Of a DNA stretch of 32,465 nucleotides, positions 12,731-32,105 are shown piece by piece. The stretch is from assembly GCA_030524715.1 (NCBI GenBank), contig JAUNGB010000062.1, positions 1-32,465 of the forward strand, in the 5' to 3' direction. Source of the DNA: Eubacteriales bacterium (GTDB taxonomy: Bacteria; Bacillota; Clostridia; Lachnospirales; Lachnospiraceae). Below the pieces are notes generated by a model. The model ran no database searches. It was not told the origin of the DNA and saw only the letters and a list, made by a program, of their open reading frames with translations. Position 1 is the stretch's first letter, and every line of letters starts with the position of its first letter. Position numbers and translations under genes: made by a program.

Positions 12731-13612
12731 AGACAACCTTGATTATAAGCATTACCATGATTGCAAAAAAAGTTATTGGGATATCCGCAGCCTCAGTGAC
12801 AAATTATGCCAGAAACATGGCCTCTCCGTTATTGAACCGACTGGAAAACGGGGCATGAAATATAAGGAATGGTCGGCAAATAAAGAGGACAAAGGTTGGA
12901 AGATTCAAATACAGAAAGATATCAACCAGACAATCAAATTTTCCTCCACGTATGAGGAATTTCTCGCACTGATGAAGGCAAAAGGGTAGGAAATGAAGAA
13001 CACTTCTTTTGACGAAAACGGTGGAAAATATATTACTTTCCGGCCATTGGAAAAAACCGACCGGTAAGAGGGAGCGCAAGATCTCTCGGTGCAAATTTTA
13101 CCAAAGAGAGGATCAAAGAACGGATAGAGAACGAACGCCGCCGGTCTGTCCCCTTTTCAAAATCCGAAAGAAATGTGCGTCAGATTATCGACACCAGTGC
13201 TGATCCGAAATTTGCGGAAAGCACCGGACTTTTAAAATGGGCTAACAAGGAAAATCTGAAAATTGCGGCAAAGACATATAGCCTTATGACCGGCAAAAAT
13301 ATCCATAATTTTTCAGAATTAAACGAGAGGATTTCTTCATTCCAGGAACAGTCAAAAGCTGCCAATCAAAGCATCGTTTCGCTGGAACATCAGATGCGGG
13401 AATTAGCAGAAACGATCAAATATGCGGAACAATACAAGGAAAACAAATCATATAATGACCGATACGAAAAAGTCAAAGATCAGGACAGATTTCTGCGTAA
13501 ATATGAATCGCATATCATTCTTTTTGCCGGCGCTGAACGTATGCTGCAGCGCAAAGGAATAGATCCGCAGCATATAAATCTGGCAGCGACTCCGCTAAGA
13601 ATCGCTGCCTAG
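12730..13612 (+). pseudogene. relaxase/mobilization nuclease, broken (internal fragment)
   Basis: Coding remnant of a Mob-type relaxase that nicks oriT in conjugative or mobilizable elements. Frame 1 gives YKHYHDCKKSYWDIRSLSDK, then HGLSVIEPTGKRGMKYKEWS and TIKFSSTYEEFLALMKAKG, and meets TAG at 12987-12989; the same frame then continues to about 13060 (KNTSFDENGGKYITFRPL). A frameshift near 13061-13064 moves to the frame that begins VRGSARSLGANFTKERIKER and stays open to 13612, with a coiled-coil-like stretch (SELNERISSFQEQSKAANQS and onward). The N-terminal catalytic domain with Tyr and the His triad is missing, and the C-terminal end is cut after HINLAATP. So it is non-functional and lacks both ends. 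Confidence 0.8.
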
Positions 13613-13615
13613 ATT
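13577..13615. terminator. strong hairpin in the overlap of two converging genes
   Basis: AATCTGGCAGCGA (13577-13589) pairs with TCGCTGCC (13602-13609) and, across a one-base bulge, AGATT (13611-13615): 13 bp in all. It spans the ends of the relaxase remnant (+) and the winged-helix gene (-). U-runs are weak on both sides, so termination is likely but not certain. Confidence 0.5.
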
Positions 13616-14026
13616 TGCATTGAACCGATACCCAACGCCCCACACCGTTTGTATGTAAATCGGCTTTTCTGGATTATCCTCAATCTTCTTTCGGATATGG
13701 CTGATGTGGCTCATGACGATATTGTAATCGCCGGAATACGGTTCATCCCAAAGAAGATCGTAGATAATCTCTTTTGTGAATATCCTTCCTGGACTGCGTG
13801 CCAGAAGATAAAGAATTTCAAACTGCGTGAACGTCAATCCGGCTTCTTTTCCCCGGTGATATACTTCTCTTGTTCCGGGATAGATAGCTAAATCACGAAA
13901 ATATAATATTTTCTCTGCCGTCTGCTCCATATACTCAAAATTTTCTTTATTCATCAACGCTGACACAACTTTATCCGCCACTTCTTCTTCGCTGTCTGCA
14001 AAGGTAATCACAAGCACTTTTCCTAT
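13595..14026 (-). CDS. winged-helix (OmpR/PhoB-type) regulator without receiver domain, start codon ATA
   Basis: The C-terminal two-thirds is a typical OmpR-type DNA-binding domain: RDLAIYPGTREVYHRG, LTFTQFEILYLLARSPGRIF, then SHIRKKIEDNPEKPIYIQTV and WGVGYRF at the end. The short N-terminal part (GKVLVITFADSEEEVADKVV) is not a phosphoacceptor receiver, so it would act as a one-component regulator; such proteins are common next to integrative elements. GGAGGTGAT is followed after 3 bases by ATA-GGA-AAA-GTG, where an ATG would be expected, suggesting loss of the start codon (14024-14026). The alternatives, TTG 14065 or GTG 14017, have no or badly spaced ribosome sites. Expression may therefore be poor. 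Last gene of the hydrolase-DUF4405 unit. Confidence 0.65.
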   Translation of the reverse strand: MGKVLVITFADSEEEVADKVVSALMNKENFEYMEQTAEKILYFRDLAIYPGTREVYHRGKEAGLTFTQFEILYLLARSPGRIFTKEIIYDLLWDEPYSGDYNIVMSHISHIRKKIEDNPEKPIYIQTVWGVGYRFNANLGSDS

Positions 14027-14077
14027 AGTATCACCTCCACTATTCCATAAATTGATCCCCCACAAATATATGCTTCA

Positions 14078-14764
14078 TTAATTCTTTTTCACTAACCGCC
14101 GATTACTTCTCCTGACCGCTTTTGAAAGATAATAACCAATCCATATAAACAAACACATAACCGCCAGATAATCGAGGAAGAAAAAGAAAATAGGTTCTTC
14201 CAAATTGTAGAAAACAAATTCTATTTGCAGGAACATATAGCTTCCGATTTCCCGGTTATAAAAAGCGTAGATTCCATATCCGGCAATGCCAAGTCCCACA
14301 ATCCGCATGATCCATACCTGAACGTCAGATAACTCGCCAAACGCTTTTTTTACCATTCCAAGAATCCCTGCCCAATGAAAACCCAGGTGCAGCGCCATCA
14401 GGATAAAGCCCCAGTATGCCGAGAGCATATGCAGGTTTTGAGCAAATCTGTACCCACTTCTGTGCGGCAGGAAATCAAAGACTTCGCGCGAAATCCAAAT
14501 GCCGCTGATCATGGAACCAGCCATTGTGAGAAAAATGAGAAAAACCAATGCCGTCTGAACCACCCTGTACAGCGTGTATTTCCCTTTGTATGTATTTTTC
14601 AGCCACTTCCTGTTAAGTATATGATGGATTACAAACAGGACAAACATAGCCATTCCAATCCATTCATGCGCCTCCCGTCCGACCAATTCAAAGGCCATAA
14701 GGAGCATCAGAAGGACGACCATTCCAAGATTGACCGCCATCCGAATCATTGGTTTTGTTCTCAT
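14078..14764 (-). CDS. DUF4405-like multi-histidine membrane protein (probable b-haem cytochrome)
   Basis: A 228-residue membrane protein with about six helices (roughly 10-27, 35-50, 66-90, 112-133, 150-168, 192-213). Histidines lie in helix regions in two sets: His33 with His47/His48, and His112 with His126/His130, about 14 residues apart, as in cytochromes that bind b haems between helices. DUF4405 proteins have been linked to transmembrane electron transfer in extracytosolic flavin systems. ATG 14764 has GGAGGG upstream. It is 21 bp after the lipoprotein hydrolase and upstream of the winged-helix gene, in a unit that shares its promoter sequence with the AKR/flavodoxin operon. Haem binding and electron transfer are inferred from the histidine pattern and the context. 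Confidence 0.75.
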   Translation of the reverse strand: MRTKPMIRMAVNLGMVVLLMLLMAFELVGREAHEWIGMAMFVLFVIHHILNRKWLKNTYKGKYTLYRVVQTALVFLIFLTMAGSMISGIWISREVFDFLPHRSGYRFAQNLHMLSAYWGFILMALHLGFHWAGILGMVKKAFGELSDVQVWIMRIVGLGIAGYGIYAFYNREIGSYMFLQIEFVFYNLEEPIFFFFLDYLAVMCLFIWIGYYLSKAVRRSNRRLVKKN

Positions 14765-14785
14765 GTTCTCTTTCCCTCCTGACGC

Positions 14786-15820
14786 TTAATTCATCTGTTT
14801 TTCCCAAAAGGCTACCGCATCGTCCATCCAGCCCTCTGCCGGTGTATCTTCTCCATATCCCCAACCGTGATTCAAATCCGGGTAAACATGAAATTCCGTA
14901 TCAATTCCGGCTGCACTGAGGTTATCAATTCTTTGCTTCATGGAATCCGGGTTGGACATGGTATCATTTTCTCCGATGCAGGCAAAGGTTGCTGGTTCGT
15001 TGCCGGTGTAGTCCTGATAAGCCGTATACTGCATAATAATCGCCGCCGCTGCCGGAAGATCGTCGCCGCCAAATTCCGCAGTCCCATAGGAGCTGATCCG
15101 GGCAACCATCTGCGCTCCTGCGGAACCGCCCCACAGCGAATAGTTCTCCGTGCTGACCTGCAATTCTTCCGCATTTTCAAAGATAAAGGAAATCGCTCTT
15201 GCCAAATCCTCCGTTGCCACACTCAAGCCTCCGGTACGATACTGCAAAACAAACGCATTATAGCCTCTTTCATTCAAATCCAGTGCGTGAGGGAATGCCG
15301 CATGAAGGGATGCCACATAGGAGAATCCGCCTCCGGCATTGACTACAGCGAATGGCGCGTCTGCATCCCCCCGGAAGAAAAACAGCCCGGTATCTTCCTT
15401 TCTCGGATCATCCGCCTTTTCCTCATCCGAATAAATGTCGTAAAAAGTCAGGGTTCCGCTTTCTGCCATATCGCTCATGGCATTTAACGTGTTTACCGAT
15501 GTTGTGACATTCACATTATTGTGCAGCGGAAACATCTCCGCCATATCACTGATCTTCATATCCCCGTCCGGCGTTTCTGTTGGAAACAGGAATCGTCCAT
15601 ATCCCTCAAATACCGGATCATTCATCACATCCGCAATAAGGGTGTCTGCGTCAAATACCGTTTCTCCATTTTCCTGCAGCGGTGTCTGCGCCTCCTGTAC
15701 GGCCTCCGTTTCCTGCTGTATGGCAATTTCTGTGGTATTGTCTTCGTCTGTCTGCGCCGCACAGCCGACCATTCCCATGCCGAGGGACAGGCAAAGCATC
15801 AAAGTAATCAAACGCTTCAT
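14786..15820 (-). CDS. lipoprotein alpha/beta hydrolase (acetyl-esterase/BD-FAE-like)
   Basis: Exported serine esterase-like protein of 344 residues. A signal peptide with lipobox (LGMGMVGC, Cys20) anchors it outside the membrane, followed by a Glu/Gln/Thr-rich linker (21-55). The hydrolase domain shows the oxyanion-region NAGGGFSY, the nucleophile elbow WGGSAGAQM, an acid residue in GENDTMSNPD and the catalytic His in DLNHGWG. ATG 15820 is followed by MKRLITLMLCL, and AGGAGG lies upstream. First gene of a unit with the DUF4405-like protein and the winged-helix regulator, transcribed from a promoter almost the same as that of the AKR/flavodoxin operon. The ester substrate is unknown; acyl or acetyl esters are likely. 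Confidence 0.82.
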   Translation of the reverse strand: MKRLITLMLCLSLGMGMVGCAAQTDEDNTTEIAIQQETEAVQEAQTPLQENGETVFDADTLIADVMNDPVFEGYGRFLFPTETPDGDMKISDMAEMFPLHNNVNVTTSVNTLNAMSDMAESGTLTFYDIYSDEEKADDPRKEDTGLFFFRGDADAPFAVVNAGGGFSYVASLHAAFPHALDLNERGYNAFVLQYRTGGLSVATEDLARAISFIFENAEELQVSTENYSLWGGSAGAQMVARISSYGTAEFGGDDLPAAAAIIMQYTAYQDYTGNEPATFACIGENDTMSNPDSMKQRIDNLSAAGIDTEFHVYPDLNHGWGYGEDTPAEGWMDDAVAFWEKQMN

Positions 15821-15879
15821 CGTATCATTCCTCCTGAAAGTTTTCTGCCCCGTCAGGTGCAGTTTTTATTTACACCCTT

Positions 15880-15949
15880 ATTATAAGAGAAGCGGTTTTC
15901 TAACAGAAGTCTCGCTTTTTTATCAAATATAAACCTGCGGTTATTACTG
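15880..15949 (-). promoter_or_regulatory. LysR-type promoter of the hydrolase-DUF4405 unit
   Basis: TATAAT on the - strand at 15885-15880, 59 nt before the hydrolase start. On the + strand ATAAACC-TGC-GGTTATTA, a near-perfect dyad, begins at 15929, 43 bp from the -10. The block 15880-15949 equals 22112-22181 at 54 of 70 positions with no gap; the best-kept parts are the dyad, CAGAAGT and CGCTTTTTTATCA. Such a dyad about 45-65 bp upstream of the -10 region fits the recognition site of a LysR activator, most likely the one encoded at 22176. Confidence 0.7.
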
Positions 15950-15966
15950 GAATATCGCGATAAGAT

Positions 15967-16014
15967 GGCAGAAAAAGCCCTGCCTTCTAAGTGAAAGCAG
16001 AGCTTTTTCCTGCC
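15967..16014 (-). terminator. intrinsic terminator at the end of the AKR/flavodoxin operon
   Basis: GGCAG, AAAAGC and CTGC (15967-15983) pair with GCAG, GCTTTT and CTGCC (15997-16014) with single mismatches. On the - strand the stem ends in GGGCTTTTTCTG. It lies 7 bp past the stop of the last aldo/keto reductase gene. Confidence 0.75.
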
Positions 16015-16020
16015 AGTTTT

Positions 16021-16863
16021 TTATCTTGCCGCACTTGCCAGACGTTCCACCAGCGCCGGATCGTAGTGTGAAAAGAACACGCTTTTTTCTTCGTCCAGAG
16101 CAGAGATTTTGGCCATATCCGCCTCGTCCAACTGAAAATCAAACACCCGGAAATTTTCTTCCATCCGTTCCCGGTGTACGGATTTCGGGATCACAACAAT
16201 CCCATTTTGTATCAGATAGCGGAGCGCCACCTGCGCCGCCGACTTGCGGTATTTTCCCCCGATTTCCAACAGCACCGGATTGGAAAAGAAGTCTTTCTTT
16301 CCCTCTGCGAAGGGCGCCCATGCCTCCTGCTGCACATGGTATTTATCCATATAGCTTTTTGCCGCTTTCTGCTGATGGAATACATGGGTTTCCACCTGAT
16401 TGACTGCCGGGGGAATCTCCGCAAACTGGCACAGGTCAACCAGTCTGTCCGGGTAAAAATTCGATACGCCGATGGCACGAATCCAGCCCTCGTTATAGGC
16501 TTCCTCCATCGCCCGGTAAGCGCCGTAATAATCCCCAAAGGGCTGGTGAATCAGCATCAGGTCAATGTAGCCTGTCTGTAGTCTGCTCAGGGATTCTTCC
16601 ATTGCCTGCCTTGCCTTTTCATATCCGGCATTGCTGATCCAGATTTTCGTTGTCAAAAACAGTTTCTCACGGGGAACACCGCACATATTTATGGCATTTC
16701 CCACCGCTTCTTCGTTTCCATAGACCTGCGCTGTATCAATCAGGCGATAGCCGGAGGCAATGGCGTCCAATACACATCGCTGTGTTTCTGCGGGGTCAAT
16801 CTGATACACGCCATATCCAAGTACCGGCATTTTGATATTGTTATTCAGCGTTACATATTCCAT
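16021..16863 (-). CDS. aldo/keto reductase (AKR5-like), last gene of the redox operon
   Basis: NAD(P)H-dependent carbonyl reductase of 280 residues. Tetrad Asp43 and Tyr48 (LIDTAQVYGNEE), Lys73 (TTKIW) and His106 ([11 protein letters not shown]) are all present, as is the cofactor motif IPKSVHRERMEEN. The first of two nearby ATGs (16869) lies only two bases from GGAGG, whereas the ATG at 16863 has a spacing of about 7 and gives MEYVTLNN, the same start as the paralogue at 22070; so 16863 is used. Clearly homologous to that paralogue over the full length, more so than to the AKR at 19355. Lies 21 bp after the flavoprotein gene and is followed by a terminator. Substrate unknown. Confidence 0.9.
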   Translation of the reverse strand: MEYVTLNNNIKMPVLGYGVYQIDPAETQRCVLDAIASGYRLIDTAQVYGNEEAVGNAINMCGVPREKLFLTTKIWISNAGYEKARQAMEESLSRLQTGYIDLMLIHQPFGDYYGAYRAMEEAYNEGWIRAIGVSNFYPDRLVDLCQFAEIPPAVNQVETHVFHQQKAAKSYMDKYHVQQEAWAPFAEGKKDFFSNPVLLEIGGKYRKSAAQVALRYLIQNGIVVIPKSVHRERMEENFRVFDFQLDEADMAKISALDEEKSVFFSHYDPALVERLASAAR

Positions 16864-16884
16864 GTTCATCCCTCCGTTTCTGCT

Positions 16885-17421
16885 TCAGGCATGGAGTCCG
16901 TACTGATAAGCCTCCTCCATTGCCGGACTGGATTTAATATCGCCCGGATTCAAAGCGTTTGCACCATAAATTTCGCCCATGATCTTTGAGCCGCGCAGGG
17001 CAAAGGTACAGCCCCGCATACTTTCCATCGTGCTTTCAATGGCCCGCTTAGAATCGGCAGCCGTGGCAATGAAGTAAAATTCCTTATTGATAAGCGTCGG
17101 ATTTCCCGCAAACATCCGGTCGATCATCGTTTTTAACTGTGCGCACATACAGGATTTATAGACCGGCGTTGCCAGAACAAGCACATCCGCCTTGTGCATT
17201 TTTTCCAGAATCCAGTTCATGTCATCCTTCTGCCAGCATTTCCCGCCGTTTTTCCGGCAGGCTTCACAGGCGATGCAGTAGCCGATCTTACAGTCTTTCA
17301 GCAGGATTTTTTCTGTATGATGACCGCTTTTAAGTGCGCCCTCGATAAAGCGGTCGCACAGCAGTTCTGAATTGCTCCCCTTTCTGGGGCTGCTTGAAAT
17401 TACAAGAATCGTTTTGCTCAT
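16885..17421 (-). CDS. cytosolic NAD(P)H-dependent flavoprotein (NADPH-dependent FMN reductase fold)
   Basis: A 178-residue flavodoxin-fold oxidoreductase with the FMN phosphate loop SSSPRKGSNSELL (9-21) and the substrate-side loop TPVYKSCMCAQLKTMIDR. Between them it has a cysteine group, GYCIACEACRKNGGKCWQKDD (Cys49, 52, 55, 62), as in iron-sulfur flavoprotein relatives, so it may hold a metal cluster or redox-active cysteines. GGAGG is 8 bases before the ATG. It lies 12 bp after the Fe-alcohol dehydrogenase and 21 bp before an AKR. It probably passes electrons from NAD(P)H to a small acceptor; which one is unknown. Confidence 0.85.
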   Translation of the reverse strand: MSKTILVISSSPRKGSNSELLCDRFIEGALKSGHHTEKILLKDCKIGYCIACEACRKNGGKCWQKDDMNWILEKMHKADVLVLATPVYKSCMCAQLKTMIDRMFAGNPTLINKEFYFIATAADSKRAIESTMESMRGCTFALRGSKIMGEIYGANALNPGDIKSSPAMEEAYQYGLHA

Positions 17422-17433
17422 TCTAAAACCTCC

Positions 17434-18609
17434 TTACTCCAGACACATCCTGAAAATTTCCTCGATGTCTTTCTGTTTCAATGGCTTAAAACCCGGAAGC
17501 ACATCCCCGCCGCAGGATTTTTTCGCCATAATGGAAAAGTTCTTATCATCGATGCCGATCTCCTGAAAGCTGCGCTTCAACCCAAGCGTATCAAACAGAA
17601 AACCGGACAGGGCTTCAATGCTCTTGCGGGCAATCATCATCGGCTCCAAAGTCGGATCAATACCGAACACATTGACGCCAAACTGCACATACTTCGACAC
17701 CGTGGTTTCGTCCAGACAATATTCCATCCAGCGGGGTGTCAGGATTGCCAGCCCAAGCCCGTGGGTAATGTCATAGAACGCGGAAAGCTCATGCTCCATC
17801 GGGTGACAGCTCCATGCCTGCCGCTTGCCTCCGGTTGCAAAACCATTGATTGCCCAGGAGGACGCCCACATAAGATTTGCCCTTGCCTCATAATTATCCG
17901 GCTGCTCCATCGCAATGGGCGCATATTTGATAACCGTTTTCATCAGCCCTTCCATAAAGCAGTCCAGCATATACAGGTCAGGCTCCATGTTGAAATACTG
18001 TTCCATCACATGGCTCAAAATGTCCGCCGAACCGCAGGCAGTCTGATAACGGCTTACAGAATACGTTGCGGTAGGATCGAGGAAGGAAGCCTTTGGAAGC
18101 AAAGTAGGGGAAACGATACGCCCTAATTTATCATTGGTTTCCGGGTTGGTAATGACGCCGCCGCCATCCATTTCCGAACCGGTTGCCGCAATCGTCAGCA
18201 CAGAGATTACCGGGAGCGCCTTTTCCACCGGAATGGTCTGATCCTTCAGGAAATCCCACGGGTCACGCTCGGTACAGGCTCCAGCAGCCATCCACTTCGT
18301 CGCATCCAGCGTAGAACCGCCGCCAACCGCCAGAAGGACGTCAATCTGCTTTTCTTTGCAGAGAGCAGCGCCTTTACGCACTGTGGCAATCCTCGGATTC
18401 GGGTCAATCCCGGACAGTTCCTCCCATTCCAGACCGGATTTCTTCATCTCCGCGGTTACCGCGTCATAAAGCCCGTTCTTTTTGATGGAACCGCCGCCAT
18501 AGGTCAGGAGCACCCGCTTTCCGTATTTGCTCAGTTCCTCTCCCAGATGGCAGAGCTGATTTTCTCCAAAATACACCTTTACAGGGATGTCATATACAAA
18601 ATTATTCAT
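17434..18609 (-). CDS. iron-containing alcohol dehydrogenase (BDH/YqhD type)
   Basis: Group III NAD(P)-dependent alcohol dehydrogenase of 391 residues, interconverting aldehydes and alcohols. The N-terminal Rossmann-like domain has GGGSTLDATKW (about 96-106); the C-terminal helical domain holds the metal ligands Asp196 and His200 (GSADILSHVMEQY), His269 (SCHPMEHEL) and His283 (DITHGLGLA). Two ATGs are available; the one at 18609 (MNNFVYDIPVKVYFG) has proper spacing from GGAAGG, while 18615 is only two bases from it. The start overlaps the end of the preceding RibD-like gene by 8 bp, indicating translational coupling. It would reduce or oxidise a carbonyl/alcohol pair in the same pathway as the AKRs. 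Confidence 0.93.
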   Translation of the reverse strand: MNNFVYDIPVKVYFGENQLCHLGEELSKYGKRVLLTYGGGSIKKNGLYDAVTAEMKKSGLEWEELSGIDPNPRIATVRKGAALCKEKQIDVLLAVGGGSTLDATKWMAAGACTERDPWDFLKDQTIPVEKALPVISVLTIAATGSEMDGGGVITNPETNDKLGRIVSPTLLPKASFLDPTATYSVSRYQTACGSADILSHVMEQYFNMEPDLYMLDCFMEGLMKTVIKYAPIAMEQPDNYEARANLMWASSWAINGFATGGKRQAWSCHPMEHELSAFYDITHGLGLAILTPRWMEYCLDETTVSKYVQFGVNVFGIDPTLEPMMIARKSIEALSGFLFDTLGLKRSFQEIGIDDKNFSIMAKKSCGGDVLPGFKPLKQKDIEEIFRMCLE

Positions 18610-19351
18610 GTTCATTTCCTTCCTTTCGATTTTTCGGTATGTATGTTAAACGGATTCCGTCGCCTTTCAGCTTTTGTATCGCTTTAAGAGAAAAGGCGAC
18701 GGTTATATCCCACATTGCATAGTTTGAACGGTCAAATACGGTGGCCGTATCCGTTCTTCCGTCGCTTAACGGGCAGATAACAAGGCTCAATTCGTCAATA
18801 CAGCCTTCCTGCAGGAAAGACCAGTTGACAACACCACCGCCGGAAATAATCAGAACATCTATTCCAAAGAATTTTTTCAAACCTTTTAGCAGTGTCCCGA
18901 CCTCTAACTGATCTGCCCCGGCAAACAGATAAGAGATTTTTTGCTTCTGAAGAAACTCCAAATAAGCATCTGATACGCTTTCTGTCAGAACGGATATGAT
19001 ATGGGATTTCGGCTGCCCGGAACGCTCCACCTGATTGGTGTTCCATTTCAGACGCCCTTCCGCATCTACCACCACCGTAAATCTCTCTGCGCTCCTGTCC
19101 GCCACATAGGGTTCCCGTGGAATACGCCGGGTTGTTTCTTTCGGCAGGCGGATATATCCGTCTGCGTACAACTCCGCCTCCGTAACTGCACCGCATAAAA
19201 TTGCGTCTGCGTCATATTCTCTGCGAAGCTCATGGGATGCCTGCCGTACAGGTATCAATTCCTCCGCCCGAAAATAAGAACCGTCGATTTTCCCGTCAAT
19301 GGAACTAAGCATATGGCAAATAACATAGGGGCGGGTTTTGTACAGCTTCAT
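18602..19351 (-). CDS. RibD C-terminal-domain (dihydrofolate reductase-fold) reductase
   Basis: A 249-residue NADPH-dependent reductase-like protein. It opens RPYVICHMLSSIDGKIDG, typical for the RibD-C fold, has the central REYDADAILCGAVT, the FVVV-type strand (RFTVVVDAEG), and the glycine motif IISGGGVVNWSFLQEG close to the end followed by DELSLVICP. It lacks a deaminase domain, so it is not a full RibD, and no riboflavin genes are nearby. It may reduce a pathway-specific carbonyl or heterocycle. Located 3 bp after the upstream AKR and overlapping the alcohol dehydrogenase by 8 bp. GGAGG lies 9 bases before the start. Confidence 0.85.
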   Translation of the reverse strand: MKLYKTRPYVICHMLSSIDGKIDGSYFRAEELIPVRQASHELRREYDADAILCGAVTEAELYADGYIRLPKETTRRIPREPYVADRSAERFTVVVDAEGRLKWNTNQVERSGQPKSHIISVLTESVSDAYLEFLQKQKISYLFAGADQLEVGTLLKGLKKFFGIDVLIISGGGVVNWSFLQEGCIDELSLVICPLSDGRTDTATVFDRSNYAMWDITVAFSLKAIQKLKGDGIRLTYIPKNRKEGNEHE

Positions 19352-19354
19352 TTC

Positions 19355-20365
19355 CTATGCGCCTCCTTCCTGCTTGGATTCGTCCGGCAAAACGGTGCCG
19401 TCAAATACTACGAGTTCCATCCGATCCAGCGCTTCATCAATAGCTTTTACTTCCTGGGGAAGAAGATGAAGGTCTACGGCCCCGGCATTTTCCCGAATCC
19501 GCTCTGCGCTTCTGGAACCGGGAATCGGAACAATGTACGGCTTTTTTGCCAGCATCCACGCCAGAGAAATCTGCGCTGGCGTAGCTTCTTTTTCAGAAGC
19601 ATATTTCCGCACCAGTTCCGTCAGTTCTTCATTTTCTTTATATCCCTTCGGCTTAAACTGGGGCATTATGCTCCGGTAATCCTCCGGGTCTGTAAATGTC
19701 TGATTTTGATAGGCGTCCGTCAGGAAACCATTTGCCAGCGGGCTAAATGCCACAAATCCAATGTTCAATTCTTCCAGAACCGGGAACAGCTTTTCATTCC
19801 ATCTCGCCATCAGGGAATAACGGTTCTGAATGGCTGTAACCGGGCAGATTGCATGGGCTTTCCGCAGGTTTGTTTCATCCACCTCCGAAATTCCCCACCG
19901 AAGGATTTTTCCTTCTTTTATAAAATCCGCCATCAGACCGGCGACTTCTTCCTCCGGTACGGCGGGATCGACACGGTGCTGGTAGTACAGATCAATATGG
20001 TCTACGCCCAACCGTTTCAAGCTGCCTTCCAATGATTTTCGGATTGTCTCCGGTCTGGAATCCAGAACACGCTTTCCATCCGAAGTAATCGTAATGCCGC
20101 ATTTTGTTGCAATCTGCACATGGTTCCGATAAGGAGCCAGCGCTTTTCCTACCAGTTCCTCATTCCACAGTTTTCTGCCATCAGGGTCAAACCCAATATA
20201 CCGCTCCGCCGTATCGAAAAATGTATAGCCTATTTCCACAGATTCCGCCAGTGTTTTTTGTGCTTCTTTCAGATCAGAAGGTGCGCCATAGGCATGGGTA
20301 AATCCCATACAGCCAAGCCCAATAGCAGATACCCTCAAATCCTTTCCAAGTATTCGTTCCTGCAT
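19355..20365 (-). CDS. aldo/keto reductase (YhdN/AKR13-like)
   Basis: A 336-residue aldo/keto reductase of a different branch from the two short ones in the cluster. Tetrad: Asp51 and Tyr56 (FFDTAERYIG), Lys88 (ATKCG), His130 (YYQHRVD). The cofactor-binding end reads IPGSRSAERIRENAGAVDL, typical of the group that covers IolS/YhdN-like enzymes. AAGGAAG precedes the ATG. The gene is 36 bp after the lipoprotein flavodoxin and 3 bp before the RibD-like gene, within the seven-gene - strand operon. Substrate unknown. Confidence 0.92.
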   Translation of the reverse strand: MQERILGKDLRVSAIGLGCMGFTHAYGAPSDLKEAQKTLAESVEIGYTFFDTAERYIGFDPDGRKLWNEELVGKALAPYRNHVQIATKCGITITSDGKRVLDSRPETIRKSLEGSLKRLGVDHIDLYYQHRVDPAVPEEEVAGLMADFIKEGKILRWGISEVDETNLRKAHAICPVTAIQNRYSLMARWNEKLFPVLEELNIGFVAFSPLANGFLTDAYQNQTFTDPEDYRSIMPQFKPKGYKENEELTELVRKYASEKEATPAQISLAWMLAKKPYIVPIPGSRSAERIRENAGAVDLHLLPQEVKAIDEALDRMELVVFDGTVLPDESKQEGGA

Positions 20366-20401
20366 TGTACTTCCTTTCCGACAATATCGAGTTTGTCAAT
20401 G

Positions 20402-21154
20402 TTACTGCTGGCTGTTCAGCCACTCCGTCAATTCCGCCCTGACTTCATCGTTGCCCGTGCTTGCGTTAATCGTAAAGCCCTCGGCAATCTCTGCATCCGG
20501 CGCAAGCTCATCCATCTCCTGTAAGATAGAACCGAAACCGCTGCCGAGATGGATTCCAAACGGAATAATGGTCTTGCCCGACAGGTCGTTCTCATTCAGG
20601 AAGGAAGCAATGGGGCGGGGCATCGAACCCGACCATACGGGTGTGCCGATATAAATCACATCATAATCAGCCAGATTTTCTACCGTGGACTGTAATTCCG
20701 GGAAAGAAGCGTCGTCCAGTTCTTCGTAGGCACGTTCCCTCATAACGTCATATTCCGGGTCATAAGGTTCGCTGACGAGAATCTGGAATACATCTGCGCC
20801 GGTCTGTTCCTGAATGACCTGCGCCATAACCTGCAGATTTCCGCTTTCATTATCTGTATCACGATTCAGACTGGCAGAGGAAATAGCGTCCACACTCATA
20901 CCGCTGGTATCGCCAATATTTTCACTGTAAGCAAAATAAGCAACCAGTGTTTTTCCTCCTGCCGCTGTCTGTCCGGCATCTGCGCTTTCTGTTTCTTGTT
21001 CTGCCGGTGCGGTTTCTTCCTGTGTGGTTTCTTCCGTTGCCGATTCTGCCTGCGTAGTCGGCTCCGTAGTATCATCTGCTTTCGGTGTGTTTCCGCAGGC
21101 GCTAAGGCTGGCGATCAGGCAGCAGGTCAAAAGCATTAAAATTGTTTTTTTCAT
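20402..21154 (-). CDS. lipoprotein flavodoxin (exported, Flavodoxin_4-like)
   Basis: A flavodoxin carried outside the membrane. From ATG 21154 (MKKTILMLLTCC) a signal peptide ends in the lipobox SLSAC (Cys20), then a Thr/Glu/Ala-rich linker (about 21-65) and a flavodoxin domain: KTLVAYFAYSENIGD, a long loop SSASLNRDTD, VIYIGTPVWSGSMPRPIASF and TIIPFGIHLGSGFGSI. A longer frame to 21211 lacks a ribosome site. Flavodoxins are normally cytosolic one-electron carriers, so a lipid anchor places flavin redox chemistry on the outer face. It lies between two AKR genes (64 bp after the first, 36 bp before the second). Together with the DUF4405-like protein under the same promoter type, an outward electron path is plausible. 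Confidence 0.88.
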   Translation of the reverse strand: MKKTILMLLTCCLIASLSACGNTPKADDTTEPTTQAESATEETTQEETAPAEQETESADAGQTAAGGKTLVAYFAYSENIGDTSGMSVDAISSASLNRDTDNESGNLQVMAQVIQEQTGADVFQILVSEPYDPEYDVMRERAYEELDDASFPELQSTVENLADYDVIYIGTPVWSGSMPRPIASFLNENDLSGKTIIPFGIHLGSGFGSILQEMDELAPDAEIAEGFTINASTGNDEVRAELTEWLNSQQ

Positions 21155-21218
21155 CGTCTGATGTCTCCCTTCTTCATTGTGCTTGATTATTTGCGGATAT
21201 GATTTTCTCACCCATTGT

Positions 21219-22070
21219 TTAATCGTGAATCTTCAATCCGTTCAACCGTCTTACCGTGTCAGCAGAATAGTGGTCTAATACCAAACTTTCTCCCTGATCC
21301 AGCTTGCTGATTTGCTCCATATCTTCTGCACTCAAAGCGAAGTTCCATACATCCATATTTTCAACCATGCGCTCTTTGTGGGTACTCTTAGGGATAACGG
21401 CAACGCCTCTTTGAATGTTCCAGCGAAGGACAACCTGCGCAACGGTTTTTCCATATTTATCCGCAATCGCTTTCAGCTCAGGATTCTCAAAAATTCCGCC
21501 CGCTCCCTGTGCCAGAGGACGCCATGCTTCCGGCTGCACACCGTAGGTTTTCATATTGTCAATCGCTGCCGTCTGCGGAAAGAACGGATGAAGCTCTACC
21601 TGATCCACCGCCGGAATTACCTGTGCGTTCAGGCAGAGGTCGGTCAGACGATCCGGGTAGAAATTGCAGACGCCAATCGCGCGGATTTTTCCGTCCTTGT
21701 ACAATTCCTCCATCGCTCTCCACGAACCGTAATAGTCTCCGAAAGGCTGATGGATCAGATACAGGTCGAGATAATCCAGCCCCAATTTATCAAGGGACGT
21801 CTGAAACGCCTGCTTCGTGCTTTCGTATCCGGCGTCCTGTATCCACAGCTTTGTCGTGATAAATAATTCTTCCCGGCGGATGCCGCTTTTCCTGATTGCC
21901 GCGCCTACCGCTTCTTCATTTGCATAAGCAGACGCTGTATCAATCATCCGATAACCGGCCTCCAAAGCATTTGCCACCGCCTGCTCGCACTCCGCAGCAT
22001 CGGTAATCTGAAAAACACCAAAGCCCATCTGGGGCATTTTTACGCCATTATTTAAAGTCACATATTCCAT
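21219..22070 (-). CDS. aldo/keto reductase (AKR5-like), first gene of the redox operon
   Basis: A 283-residue carbonyl reductase with tetrad Asp44 and Tyr49 ([12 protein letters not shown]), Lys74 (TTKLWI) and His107 ([11 protein letters not shown]). The cofactor end reads [22 protein letters not shown] lies 7 bases before ATG 22070. It is a paralogue of 16863-16021: both share [24 protein letters not shown], FYPDRLxDLC and more, indicating duplication within one cluster. The gene starts about 40 nt after the -10 of the LysR-type promoter, so it is the first target of that promoter. Confidence 0.92.
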
Positions 22071-22111
22071 TTCAATACCTCCGTGTATCGCTTGTTTTTG
22101 TTTACGCTCTT

Positions 22112-22181
22112 ATTATACAAAAAGCGGAACCTCCTCAGAAGTCCCGCTTTTTTATCAGGTATAAACCCTCGGTTATTACTG
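22112..22181 (-). promoter_or_regulatory. LysR-type promoter of the AKR/flavodoxin operon, with hairpin ending lysR
   Basis: TATAAT on the - strand at 22117-22112. The dyad ATAAACC-CTC-GGTTATTA begins at 22161, 43 bp from the -10, and overlaps the stop codon of lysR. The 70-bp block is 54/70 identical to 15880-15949. A stem AAAAAGCGG / CCGCTTTTT within it can also act as terminator for lysR, its U-run ending at the -10 box. One stretch thus ends one unit and starts the next. Confidence 0.7.
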
Positions 22182-23084
22182 TTTTTGAATGACCTGCTCG
22201 ATTGCGTCCAGAAATTTCAGCACATTTTCAGACGGTTCCTGTGCGTGAAGAATACCAAAGGGAATTGTATAATCCCACTGCACCGGAATGACCTTCAAGA
22301 GCGGATGCACATCCTTCCATCGGTCTATCGTCATGATCAGATGATTGTTCAATTCACACTGGTTATATGCCTCTGTGCCATAAAAATCAAAAGTTTCAAT
22401 ATGGATTCCCGGATATTCGCTTATAAGATGATCCCGCACAATGTCAATATAAGAGTTCCAGTTCCGCCGGATCAGCATAAGGGTTTCCCCGTCTAAATCC
22501 TCCATTGTCAAAATTTCTTTCCCTGCCAGCCGGTGGCGCACCGGAACAGCAATACGAAGCGGCTCATCTGATAGAAATGTCGCCGCACAGCCCCGCTCCT
22601 CCAAATAGTCATCGTCCAAAACTCCAACCACCAAATCAATGTTTCGTCCGAACGCCCTCTGAATCTCCTTTGCGTTTTCCGGCGTATTTTCAAAGGGAAC
22701 CAGTTGGAATTTCATATCCGGCAGGTATGGATGAATCTGAGGCCACAGGTCAATCAAAAATTGCCCCGGTGTCATAGGCGATGTGCCGATTTTCAGAATA
22801 TGGTCGTTCTTTTCCGCCGCCGTTTTTGCCCGTTCTACCGAGCCTTTGAAATATTGGAGAAGATATGTAGCGTCCTTGTAAAAAGATTTTCCGGCATCTG
22901 TCAATACCAGCCCGCGATGCGTACGGATAAACAATGACACTTCAAGTTCTGCTTCTACGGCATTGATCTGCTTGATAACTGCCGGAGGGGAAATATATAG
23001 ATCTTCGGCGGCTTTATTAAAGCTCCCCATATCTGCCACATGAATAAATGTCTCAAGCTGTAAATTATTCAAGACAGTCACCAT
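22176..23084 (-). CDS. LysR-family transcriptional regulator of the redox island
   Basis: A 302-residue regulator. N-terminal winged helix: LQLETFIHVADMGSFNKAAE and DLYISPPAVIKQINAVEAEL, then LFIRTHRGLVLTDAGKSFY; the effector-binding domain follows from about residue 93 (ILKIGTSPMTPGQFLIDLWP onward). ATG 23084 lies right against AAAAGG; the TTG at 23072 (LNNLQLETF) has better spacing from AAGGATGG, so either may be used. The 5' end overlaps the small HTH gene, pointing to coupling. It is followed by the shared LysR-type promoter. The same promoter block before the hydrolase unit makes it the probable regulator of both units. An N-terminal copy lies at 31553-32020. Confidence 0.93.
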   Translation of the reverse strand: MVTVLNNLQLETFIHVADMGSFNKAAEDLYISPPAVIKQINAVEAELEVSLFIRTHRGLVLTDAGKSFYKDATYLLQYFKGSVERAKTAAEKNDHILKIGTSPMTPGQFLIDLWPQIHPYLPDMKFQLVPFENTPENAKEIQRAFGRNIDLVVGVLDDDYLEERGCAATFLSDEPLRIAVPVRHRLAGKEILTMEDLDGETLMLIRRNWNSYIDIVRDHLISEYPGIHIETFDFYGTEAYNQCELNNHLIMTIDRWKDVHPLLKVIPVQWDYTIPFGILHAQEPSENVLKFLDAIEQVIQKQ

Positions 23085-23283
23085 CCTTTTTTCTGCATTT
23101 CATTTCCTGTCTTGCTCTCCGCGTCCTGTTGTCCACGGGTTTTTGCGCATCTTTAGGAATCATCCATATATGTCCAAAGCGTGTTACGCCTGAAAGCCTG
23201 TTTTCCTCACACAGTTTTTGAACTCGCCGCTCTGATAAATCCCATTTTTTTGCGGTATCCCTCACTGAAATATAATCCAACAT
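23065..23283 (-). CDS. small helix-turn-helix (MerR/excisionase-like) DNA-binding protein
   Basis: A 72-residue protein opening MLDYISVRDTAKKWDLSERR, then VQKLCEENRLSGVTRFGHIW and MIPKDAQKPVDNR. This is the winged-helix pattern of small excisionase/MerR-type proteins (recognition helix in DLSERRVQKLCEE, wing in RFGHIWMIPKDA), often found in mobile elements and as small co-regulators. GGAGG lies 9 bases before the start; a good promoter sits at 23311-23339. The 3' end overlaps lysR by up to 20 bp. In the second copy (near 32041) 176 bp including nearly all of this gene are deleted. Its target is unknown; it may assist or restrain LysR. Confidence 0.8.
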   Translation of the reverse strand: MLDYISVRDTAKKWDLSERRVQKLCEENRLSGVTRFGHIWMIPKDAQKPVDNRTRRARQEMKCRKKDGDCLE

Positions 23284-23310
23284 AGCGCACGCCTCCTTTA
23301 TCCTGATCCT

Positions 23311-23339
23311 ATTATATGCGGAGAAACGAATAAAAACAA
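23311..23339 (-). promoter_or_regulatory. sigma-A promoter of the HTH-lysR unit
   Basis: On the - strand TTGTTT (23339-23334) and TATAAT (23316-23311), spacer 17, about 27 nt before the HTH gene start. The repeat copy at 32071-32099 keeps the same layout with TTGCTT. Confidence 0.7.
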
Positions 23340-23361
23340 GTTAGTTATACCGAAAGTCAGA

Positions 23362-31552: not shown

Positions 31553-32020
31553 CTATCGCCCATTGATCAAATCAATGTTCCGTCGGAACGCTCTCTGAAT
31601 CTCTTTCGCGTTTTCCGGCGTATTTTCAAAGGGAACTAGTTGGAATTTCATATCCGGCAGGTATGGATGAATCTGCGGCCACAGGTCAATCAAAATTTGC
31701 CCCGGAATCATAGGCGAGGTGCCGATTTTCAGAATATGGCCGTTCTTTTCCGCTGCCGTTTTTGCCCGTTCTACCGAGCCTTTGAAATATTGAAGAAGAT
31801 ATGTAGCGTCCTTGTAAAAAGATTTTCCGGCATCTGTTAATACCAGCCCGCGATGGGTACGGATGAACAACGACACTTCAAGCTCTGCTTTTACGGCATT
31901 GATCTGCTTGATAACTGCCGGAGGGGAAATATATAAATCTTCGGCGGCTTTATTAAAGCTCCCCATATCTGCCACATGAATAAATGTCTCAAGCTGTAAA
32001 TTATTCAAGACAGTCACCAT
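31553..32020 (-). pseudogene. truncated second copy of the LysR regulator (N-terminal half)
   Basis: The 155-residue frame repeats the first about 151 residues of the LysR at 23084, with few changes (Glu43 to Lys in NAVKAELE, Asp to Gly in KNGHILK, Thr to Ile in SPMIPGQI, Gly to Arg in RRNIDL), then leaves homology at NIDL and ends INGR-stop. It keeps the whole winged helix and linker helix but only part of the effector domain. The promoter and start region are retained. It ends two bases after the AraC stop, in converging direction. It could be inert or could compete for the sites of the intact LysR. Confidence 0.85.
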
Positions 32021-32105
32021 CCTTTTTTAATATAATCCAACATAGCGCACGCCTCCTTTATCCTAATCCTATTATATGCGGAGAAACGAATAGAAGCAAG
32101 TTAGT
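31568..32105 (-). repeat. direct repeat of the lysR/HTH/promoter segment (copy of 22632-23346)
   Basis: Homology starts at CAAATCAATGTT (31568; 22632 in the first copy) and ends after CAAGTTAGT (32105; near 23346). Inside, 176 bp matching 23093-23268 are missing, joining CCTTTTTT directly to AATATAATCC, so the HTH gene is reduced to a start and nine codons (MLDYIKKGW-stop). Both copies point the same way and bracket the GH3-to-AraC module. Confidence 0.85.
32071..32099 (-). promoter_or_regulatory. retained promoter of the truncated lysR copy
   Basis: TTGCTT (32099-32094) and TATAAT (32076-32071), 17-bp spacer, on the - strand, with GGAGG downstream as in the first copy. Confidence 0.6.

Follow-up and report, generated by a model that had tools for sequence, protein, structure and literature searches.

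The 32,465-nt contig JAUNGB010000062.1 of a Lachnospiraceae member filed as Eubacteriales bacterium (assembly GCA_030524715.1), hereafter the window, is one of the 210 contigs of a 5.28-Mb genome (contig C207) and carries a cluster of redox genes that is read here as two transcription units under one LysR-type regulator. Along the minus strand, on which all features below lie, the order is lysR, promoter P1, a first aldo/keto reductase gene (AKR-a), a lipoprotein flavodoxin, AKR-b, a RibD-like reductase, an iron-type alcohol dehydrogenase (Fe-ADH), an FMN_red flavoprotein, AKR-c, promoter P2, a lipoprotein esterase, a DUF4405 membrane protein, and a winged-helix gene. A sequence-only reading had proposed a membrane-spanning redox system under a single LysR switch. 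Matches to Pfam and NCBIfam profiles establish the gene identities at the level of sequence, and Pfam bears out each structural gene that this reading had named.

Two promoters with a common operator

The regulator gene (22176..23084) matches the NCBIfam LysR models, in all cases below their cut-offs, and its product is the presumed activator of both units. P1 (22109..22182) combines a LysR operator dyad, a GAGACTTCT-type element, and a -10 box TATAAT, and P2 (15877..15950) is a second copy of this operator/promoter with a decayed hairpin; both were recognised by footprint and weight matrix. The two are 80% identical over 89 aligned columns (22094-22181 versus 15862-15949; blastn E 6e-11) and both fit an architecture that is kept in relatives, in line with the earlier description of them as near-identical.

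This architecture emerged from an alignment of the DNA 3' of lysR in relatives, and consists of a dyad TTATAACC-TTT-GGTATAA, a block ACTG-ATGAAC-NAA-NN-GAGACTTCT, and a TATAAT-like box. The general form of the dyad is TTATAACC-N3-GGTATAA, in which the spacer can be any 3 nt. The interrupted dyad keeps a near-fixed distance upstream of the -10 box, as in LysR-type promoters: of 52 scanned regions (49 lysR 3' regions, P1, P2, and the paralogous locus on contig C62 of the same genome), 43 have a -10 box with at most one mismatch 61-63 nt from the dyad start, namely 62 nt in 33, 61 in 8, and 63 in 2, where ties were resolved in favour of 62. L108, whose dyad is poor, is counted among the 43 but does not enter the later alignments.

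To follow the operator further, 80 loci were used that had been collected by searching 84,980 species genomes for relatives of the esterase; these are the best 80 of at least 559 relatives (at least 594 stretches), with flanks of up to 10 kb, and thus the best esterase relatives and not a census. A weight matrix combined with the spacing was run over the 1.31 Mb of these loci and gave 81 sites, spread over 55 of the 80, versus 7 sites in five shuffles (6.54 Mb), a comparison in which the matrix had been trained on many of the 81 sites and the shuffling was mononucleotide. A recognisable lysR adjoins 41 of the sites. Among the other 40, 33 have a recognised cluster gene at most 350 nt downstream, i.e., an alpha/beta hydrolase (7), AKR-b (5), AKR-c (4), an esterase fusion (4), a flavodoxin (3), an FMN_red type (3), AKR-a (2), a PF00756 esterase (2), or an Fe-ADH, a Flavin_Reduct protein, or a permease (one each). 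Like the window, the clusters of L121, L125, and L138 hold at least two operator sites.

A second model, R1, spans 49 positions and was built from 59 training sites, including P1, P2, and the C62 site. In the own genome it matched at E < 0.002 the sites on C62, C150, and C127, both window promoters (P1 1.9e-6 and P2 8.1e-7, both being training sequences), and three sites on C121; two more matches had E near 0.5. The contigs concerned carry FMN_red, RibD, and AKR fragments (C121), an AKR-like open reading frame (ORF; C150), and an AKR pair (C127). The C121 stretch (L199 8939-10002) appears to be a partial and decayed cluster copy with operator sites close by.

In a survey of 200 family-level genomes, one per genus and under stricter filters, R1 matched in 29: where a strong esterase orthologue is present (E < 1e-60), it matched in 18 of 22 genomes, versus 11 of the 178 others (Fisher p 1e-14); at least two of the sampled genomes (G067 and G162) carry sites identical to R1 training loci. 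At the 29 sampled loci, lysR lies upstream in 11 and a recognised cluster gene downstream in 18, one of them 1.3 kb away, while nine have no recognised neighbour on either side, partly since the matrix chose another place than the model. As judged from sequence, the shared operator and its conservation are established, and because the operator is conserved, both across the 81 sites and in this contrast between genomes, the control of both units by one LysR is well supported. The two units are thus very probably co-regulated, as the sequence-only reading had required of them, and the placement of the operator suggests activation by LysR, not repression. The operator model also allows candidate regulon members in related genomes to be listed from their DNA.

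P1 overlaps a terminator-like hairpin of lysR (-16.3 kcal/mol), and the hairpin at P2 has -4.5 kcal/mol. A role of this hairpin as a regulatory RNA element was considered and rejected: at the 41 lysR-adjacent sites the hairpin is strong, with a mean of -13.7 kcal/mol, whereas it is weak at the remaining 40 (mean -6.6, median -4.5), and it therefore reads as the lysR terminator.

Two further observations concern the regulator gene. A 3'-truncated second lysR copy is found at 31553-32105 (95% identity over 461 nt and 96% over 77 nt), which keeps part of the lysR upstream region without most of the small upstream ORF. This small ORF, at about 23065-23283, overlaps the lysR start and, read by eye, encodes a helix-turn-helix-like product of ~72 aa.

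Conservation of the gene set

Genes in the 80 loci were called with a longest-ORF script, which recovered even the esterase in no more than 73 of them, so that all gene counts are lower bounds, and 41 of the loci do not reach 19 kb. The loci contain a flavodoxin in at least 54 cases, LysR and Fe-ADH in at least 48 each, AKR-b-like genes in at least 27, AKR-c-like in at least 22, DUF4405 in at least 20, AKR-a-like in at least 19, RibD-like in at least 16, and FMN_red in at least 14. All six core categories occur together in 9 of the 80 loci and at least four in 46; of the 39 loci that are 19 kb or longer, 28 have at least four, with Fe-ADH in 31, an AKR in 31, a flavodoxin in 30, LysR in 28, and DUF4405 in 10. 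As DUF4405 gave 74 matches in the 200 whole genomes, the chance of meeting one in a random 20-kb stretch is well under 1%. The LysR relatives, present in 48 of the 80 loci, are 48-58% identical, and in 33 of 49 cases the next gene after lysR is that of the esterase.

The cluster is therefore a real feature that recurs in many relatives, and the gene set, whose absence from other genomes would have counted against the earlier proposal, is conserved. Lachnospiraceae are frequent among the named relatives; the genes keep the same order in [Clostridium] methylpentosum (Oscillospiraceae; L125), and part of it is present together with the operator in Trichococcus pasteurii (Lactobacillales). The own genome has a paralogous locus on C62 with LysR (56%), esterase (49%), Fe-ADH (39%), and a lipoprotein flavodoxin. 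Recurrent additions in relatives are extra lipoprotein esterases, a flavodoxin-like/esterase fusion, a Flavin_Reduct protein, and sometimes ApbE (2/80) or a MatE exporter (7/80).

Envelope and cytosolic gene products

The flavodoxin gene (20402..21154) probably starts at ATG 21154, which gives a signal peptide and the lipobox LSAC with Cys20, and not at the GTG at 21211 of the ORF list. With signal and lipobox read from its sequence, the product is predicted to be an exported lipoprotein of the Flavodoxin_4 family (PF12682, 80 bits versus a cut-off of 24; nearest solved structures 4ici, 4j8p, and 3klb). Flavinylation has been reported for Flavodoxin_4 proteins in which strand 1 is followed by an insertion (PMC11334425). 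The window protein has such an insertion, between strand 1 and helix 1, and the alignment places in it a candidate ApbE flavinylation motif, DAISSAS (D89-S95; 20870..20890), that departs from D-x-x-[ST]-G-A-[ST] (PMC12052999) at one position, Gly to Ser. Its homologues often have [VI]DA-x-x-[GS]AS, or have no insertion. By our own lipobox and motif patterns, which are looser than the published motif, the 98 lipobox flavodoxins in 90 loci divide into 36 with the motif, 35 with a classical P-loop, and 27 with neither, and those without a lipobox into 4, 12, and 17, respectively, so that a lipobox is found in 36 of 40 motif flavodoxins versus 62 of 91 without the motif (p 0.008). If right, the lipobox flavodoxins without a motif differ from the remark in PMC11334425 that extracytosolic members show signs of flavinylation. 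The view of flavodoxins as normally cytosolic, taken in the sequence-only reading, no longer holds for this family (PMC11334425).

ApbE is encoded by three copies in the own genome, none of them in the window. In relatives, apbE adjoins the alpha/beta hydrolase gene in G105 and DUF4405 in G067; its mere presence in a genome is a weak test because 180 of the 200 genomes have it. The flavodoxin probably carries FMN covalently at Ser95, attached by an ApbE encoded elsewhere in the genome.

The DUF4405 membrane protein (14078..14764; PF14358, 46.1 bits versus a cut-off of 26.7) is a predicted di-haem b cytochrome. Its residues H33, H47, H112, H126, and H130 are invariant in 27 of 27 aligned sequences, the first four being those for which conservation had been called decisive. 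In an AlphaFold2 model with six long helices (pLDDT 90.5), H33/H47 fall on the helix of residues 30-50 and H112/H126 on that of residues 105-129, and the members of each pair are separated by 14 residues, the spacing known from cytochrome b. Comparison of the DUF4405 profile with solved chains by sequence gave four matches, none better than E 0.77, and Foldseek gave no match at E <= 0.001. A DUF4405 protein has been reported to bind haem b, and DUF4405 and Flavodoxin_4 genes to co-localise with apbE (PMC11334425), which suggests that the window protein binds haem as well and agrees with the earlier statement that DUF4405 is linked to transmembrane electron flow.

Two kinds of locus with these families were also observed. 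DUF4405, an FGE-sulfatase part, and Flavodoxin_4 form single ORFs at L102 1492-3672, L103 1-2181, and L105 178-2157, where a formylglycine-generating-enzyme-like domain stands between the membrane cytochrome and the flavodoxin. Further DUF4405 plus flavodoxin loci of the own genome lie on C144, C6, C156, and C40 (L038, L039, L040, and L046), the first two of which also carry other LysR-like genes and AKRs.

The esterase gene (14786..15820) encodes an alpha/beta hydrolase of the carboxylesterase type (PF00326, PF20434, PF07859) with a lipobox (Cys20) and a putative triad Ser233/Asp286/His318; GGSAG and the Asp are invariant in 15 of 15 aligned sequences, and the His is kept in at least 90%. The lipobox rule was positive for 52 of 80 esterases and 6 of 83 AKRs, and for none of 56 Fe-ADH, 51 LysR, 20 DUF4405, and 16 RibD sequences. 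In 8 of 15 relatives examined, the esterase has an N-terminal part that matches our own flavodoxin profile. Fusions of the flavodoxin-like/BD-FAE/Abhydrolase_3 type were observed at L125 12890-14260 and at L119, L129, L138, L140, L151, L176, and L182; their degenerate N-terminal part reached 23.9 bits with Pfam Flavodoxin_4 (cut-off 24) in one of three scanned and gave nothing in the other two.

The cytosolic products comprise three AKRs, namely, AKR-a (21219..22070; PF00248), which resembles 2,5-diketo-D-gluconate (2,5-DKG) reductase and YvgN (1vp5, 4mhb, 3d3f), AKR-b (19355..20365; PF00248, 237 bits), and the DkgA-like AKR-c (16021..16869; PF00248, with 247 bits for the DkgA model NF008598, below its cut-off of 425), as well as a RibD_C-like reductase (18602..19351; PF01872; 5xv2, 6p8c), the YqhD/BDH-like Fe-ADH (17434..18615; PF00465 and PF25137), and an FMN_red flavoprotein with a CX2CX2CX6C motif (16885..17421; PF03358; nearest solved structure 7d38). 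The D/Y, K, and H motifs of the AKRs and the D...H and H...H motifs of the Fe-ADH are present, and the nearest solved relatives of the Fe-ADH (7w9x, 1vlj, and YqhD, 1oj7) and of AKR-a (1vp5 and YvgN, 3d3f) are carbonyl reductases. With 272.7 bits against the YqhD model NF011717 (cut-off 645), the Fe-ADH is a relative of YqhD and is not filed as YqhD. The Cys motif of FMN_red (CX2CX2CX5-6C) is kept in all nine relatives that share more than 40% identity, and ~100 N-terminal residues of the Flavonifractor plautii flavone reductase FLR (PMC7862272) resemble FMN_red (E 1.5e-13); FLR is a chain of 310 aa versus 178 aa here, and a shared substrate has no support. The YqhD/DkgA-like enzymes and the FLR-like FMN_red favour a cytosolic arm that reduces carbonyl, enone, or quinone groups.

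Possible function of the regulon and its alternatives

Given an even chance here, the cluster would be an inducible LysR regulon for the hydrolysis and reduction of reactive compounds, with an envelope arm and a cytosolic arm. About ten structural genes on two transcripts would be switched by LysR, which would bind the dyad centred ~65 nt upstream of both transcript starts (judged from the distance between dyad and -10 box) and activate promoters that have a poor -35 box; the inducer is probably the substrate or a product of it. Outside the membrane, the lipoprotein carboxylesterase would cleave ester or lactone compounds, and the lipoprotein flavodoxin may exchange electrons with the membrane via the di-haem DUF4405 cytochrome. 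In the cell interior, two DkgA-type AKRs, the third AKR, the YqhD-like Fe-ADH, the RibD-like reductase, and the FMN/Fe-S-type flavoprotein would reduce carbonyl, quinone, and enone groups. The purpose would be the inducible detoxification of reactive ester/carbonyl/quinone compounds, for which the MatE exporter-type genes also speak.

Parts of this scheme have known counterparts. In Escherichia coli, yqhD and dkgA have YqhC as their activator, and YqhD gives protection from aldehydes (PMC8262776); the window likewise has a YqhD-like Fe-ADH and a DkgA-like AKR under a dedicated activator, but the regulator is of the LysR type and a membrane cytochrome, a lipoprotein flavodoxin, and a lipoprotein esterase are added. 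The electron-transfer core is of a known kind: as in the ApbE/DUF4405/Flavodoxin_4 system of PMC11334425, there are four conserved DUF4405 histidines and an exported Flavodoxin_4 protein with an insertion, which here bears a candidate motif, and ApbE is adjacent in some relatives. It differs from that system in that ApbE is unlinked in the window, DUF4405 and the flavodoxin lie in separate units, and the regulon includes esterases and carbonyl reductases. MsrQ- and PepSY-like proteins are likewise membrane haem proteins with a proposed role in passing electrons to flavoproteins or reductases outside the cytosol; their sequence similarity to DUF4405 is low (PMC11334425). The novelty lies in the regulon, which joins such a core with lipoprotein esterases and with carbonyl reductases like YqhD and DkgA. 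The main text of PMC11334425 contains no mention of LysR, aldo, or lipoprotein, and no description of such a cluster was recognised in the available parts of the literature on the gene set, including a C. difficile flavodoxin paper, PMC8238504, and a hypochlorite review. DUF4405 cytochromes and flavinylated flavodoxins were found by genome mining and presented, in the available part of PMC11334425, without a physiological substrate, and the candidate regulator, precise operator, and co-regulated enzymes described here make that substrate question testable.

The electron path from DUF4405 to the flavodoxin, which the sequence-only reading had also drawn, agrees with that published work; some results weigh against a tight pairing of the two proteins. 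Their genes are located in different units, and the enrichment of motif flavodoxins in DUF4405 loci is not significant, either among the 80 loci (8/20 versus 16/60, p 0.27) or among flavodoxin loci with and without DUF4405 (8/18 versus 16/44, p 0.58). Among 29 DUF4405-centred loci with 1.5-kb flanks, a flavodoxin ORF was present in 17, a motif flavodoxin in 5, and ApbE in 1.

An unlikely but not negligible alternative, close to the sequence-only reading, is the dedicated catabolism of one ester-bound dietary compound (e.g., a phenolic/hydroxycinnamate ester), in which surface esterases would free the compound, cytosolic reductases would convert it, and electrons would leave through DUF4405 and the flavodoxin. 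The weight that the loci give to esterases would suit it, given the frequent order of lysR and esterase, the flavodoxin-like N-terminal part of the esterase, and the recurring extra lipoprotein esterase families (with representatives matching Peptidase_S9 in 21 loci and PF00756 in 15), as would FLR being the nearest solved relative of FMN_red. However, gene content varies strongly among the loci, as in a toolbox and not a linear pathway, AKRs and YqhD-like enzymes are broad carbonyl reductases, and the annotated recurring transporters are MatE (7 loci), ABC ATPase (7), and ArsP_1 (6); a gene for uptake or for ring cleavage may still lie among the minor families, of which a minority was annotated. 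Inducible hydrolysis/reduction of ester, carbonyl, or quinone-type toxicants is therefore favoured over a dedicated catabolic pathway.

Somewhat more doubtful is that two functions share one switch, i.e., a set against carbonyl stress in the cytosol and, distinct from it, an extracytosolic outlet for electrons made of DUF4405 and flavodoxin, the two acting on different compounds. Such an outlet is conceivable on its own, as DUF4405 and flavodoxin occur together without this LysR and esterase on C144, C6, and C156 and clusters of DUF4405, flavodoxin, and ApbE have been described alone (PMC11334425). It is opposed by the position of the esterase next to DUF4405 in the window and in some loci, and by the flavodoxin-like part carried by the esterase in eight loci. 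A chance neighbourhood of unrelated redox genes can be dismissed as highly improbable, for the AKR, LysR, and flavodoxin families are common but the operator is conserved with near-fixed spacing and so is the gene set.

A surface hydrolyse-and-reduce system can be put forward only tentatively, as a rather improbable reading: the exported flavodoxin would be more than a carrier, namely the reductase of a product exposed by the neighbouring, sometimes fused, esterase, DUF4405 would feed it electrons through the membrane, and the cytosolic reductases would finish the conversion. If true, this would amount to an inducible, envelope-spanning detoxification/biotransformation machine of gut Clostridia that is controlled via one LysR operator.

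At the end of the second unit, the winged-helix gene (13595..14065; Trans_reg_C, PF00486) encodes a protein without a receiver domain. Because it was matched in 2 of the 80 related loci, and twice in the cluster of G104, it is probably an accessory outside the conserved set. A DUF362 lipoprotein and an ArsP_1-type permease, singly or paired, were also observed in the clusters of L168 (5393-6376), L145 (7554-8468), L198 (3-1557), and L224, in the last of which the DUF362 gene lies directly 3' of an operator site.

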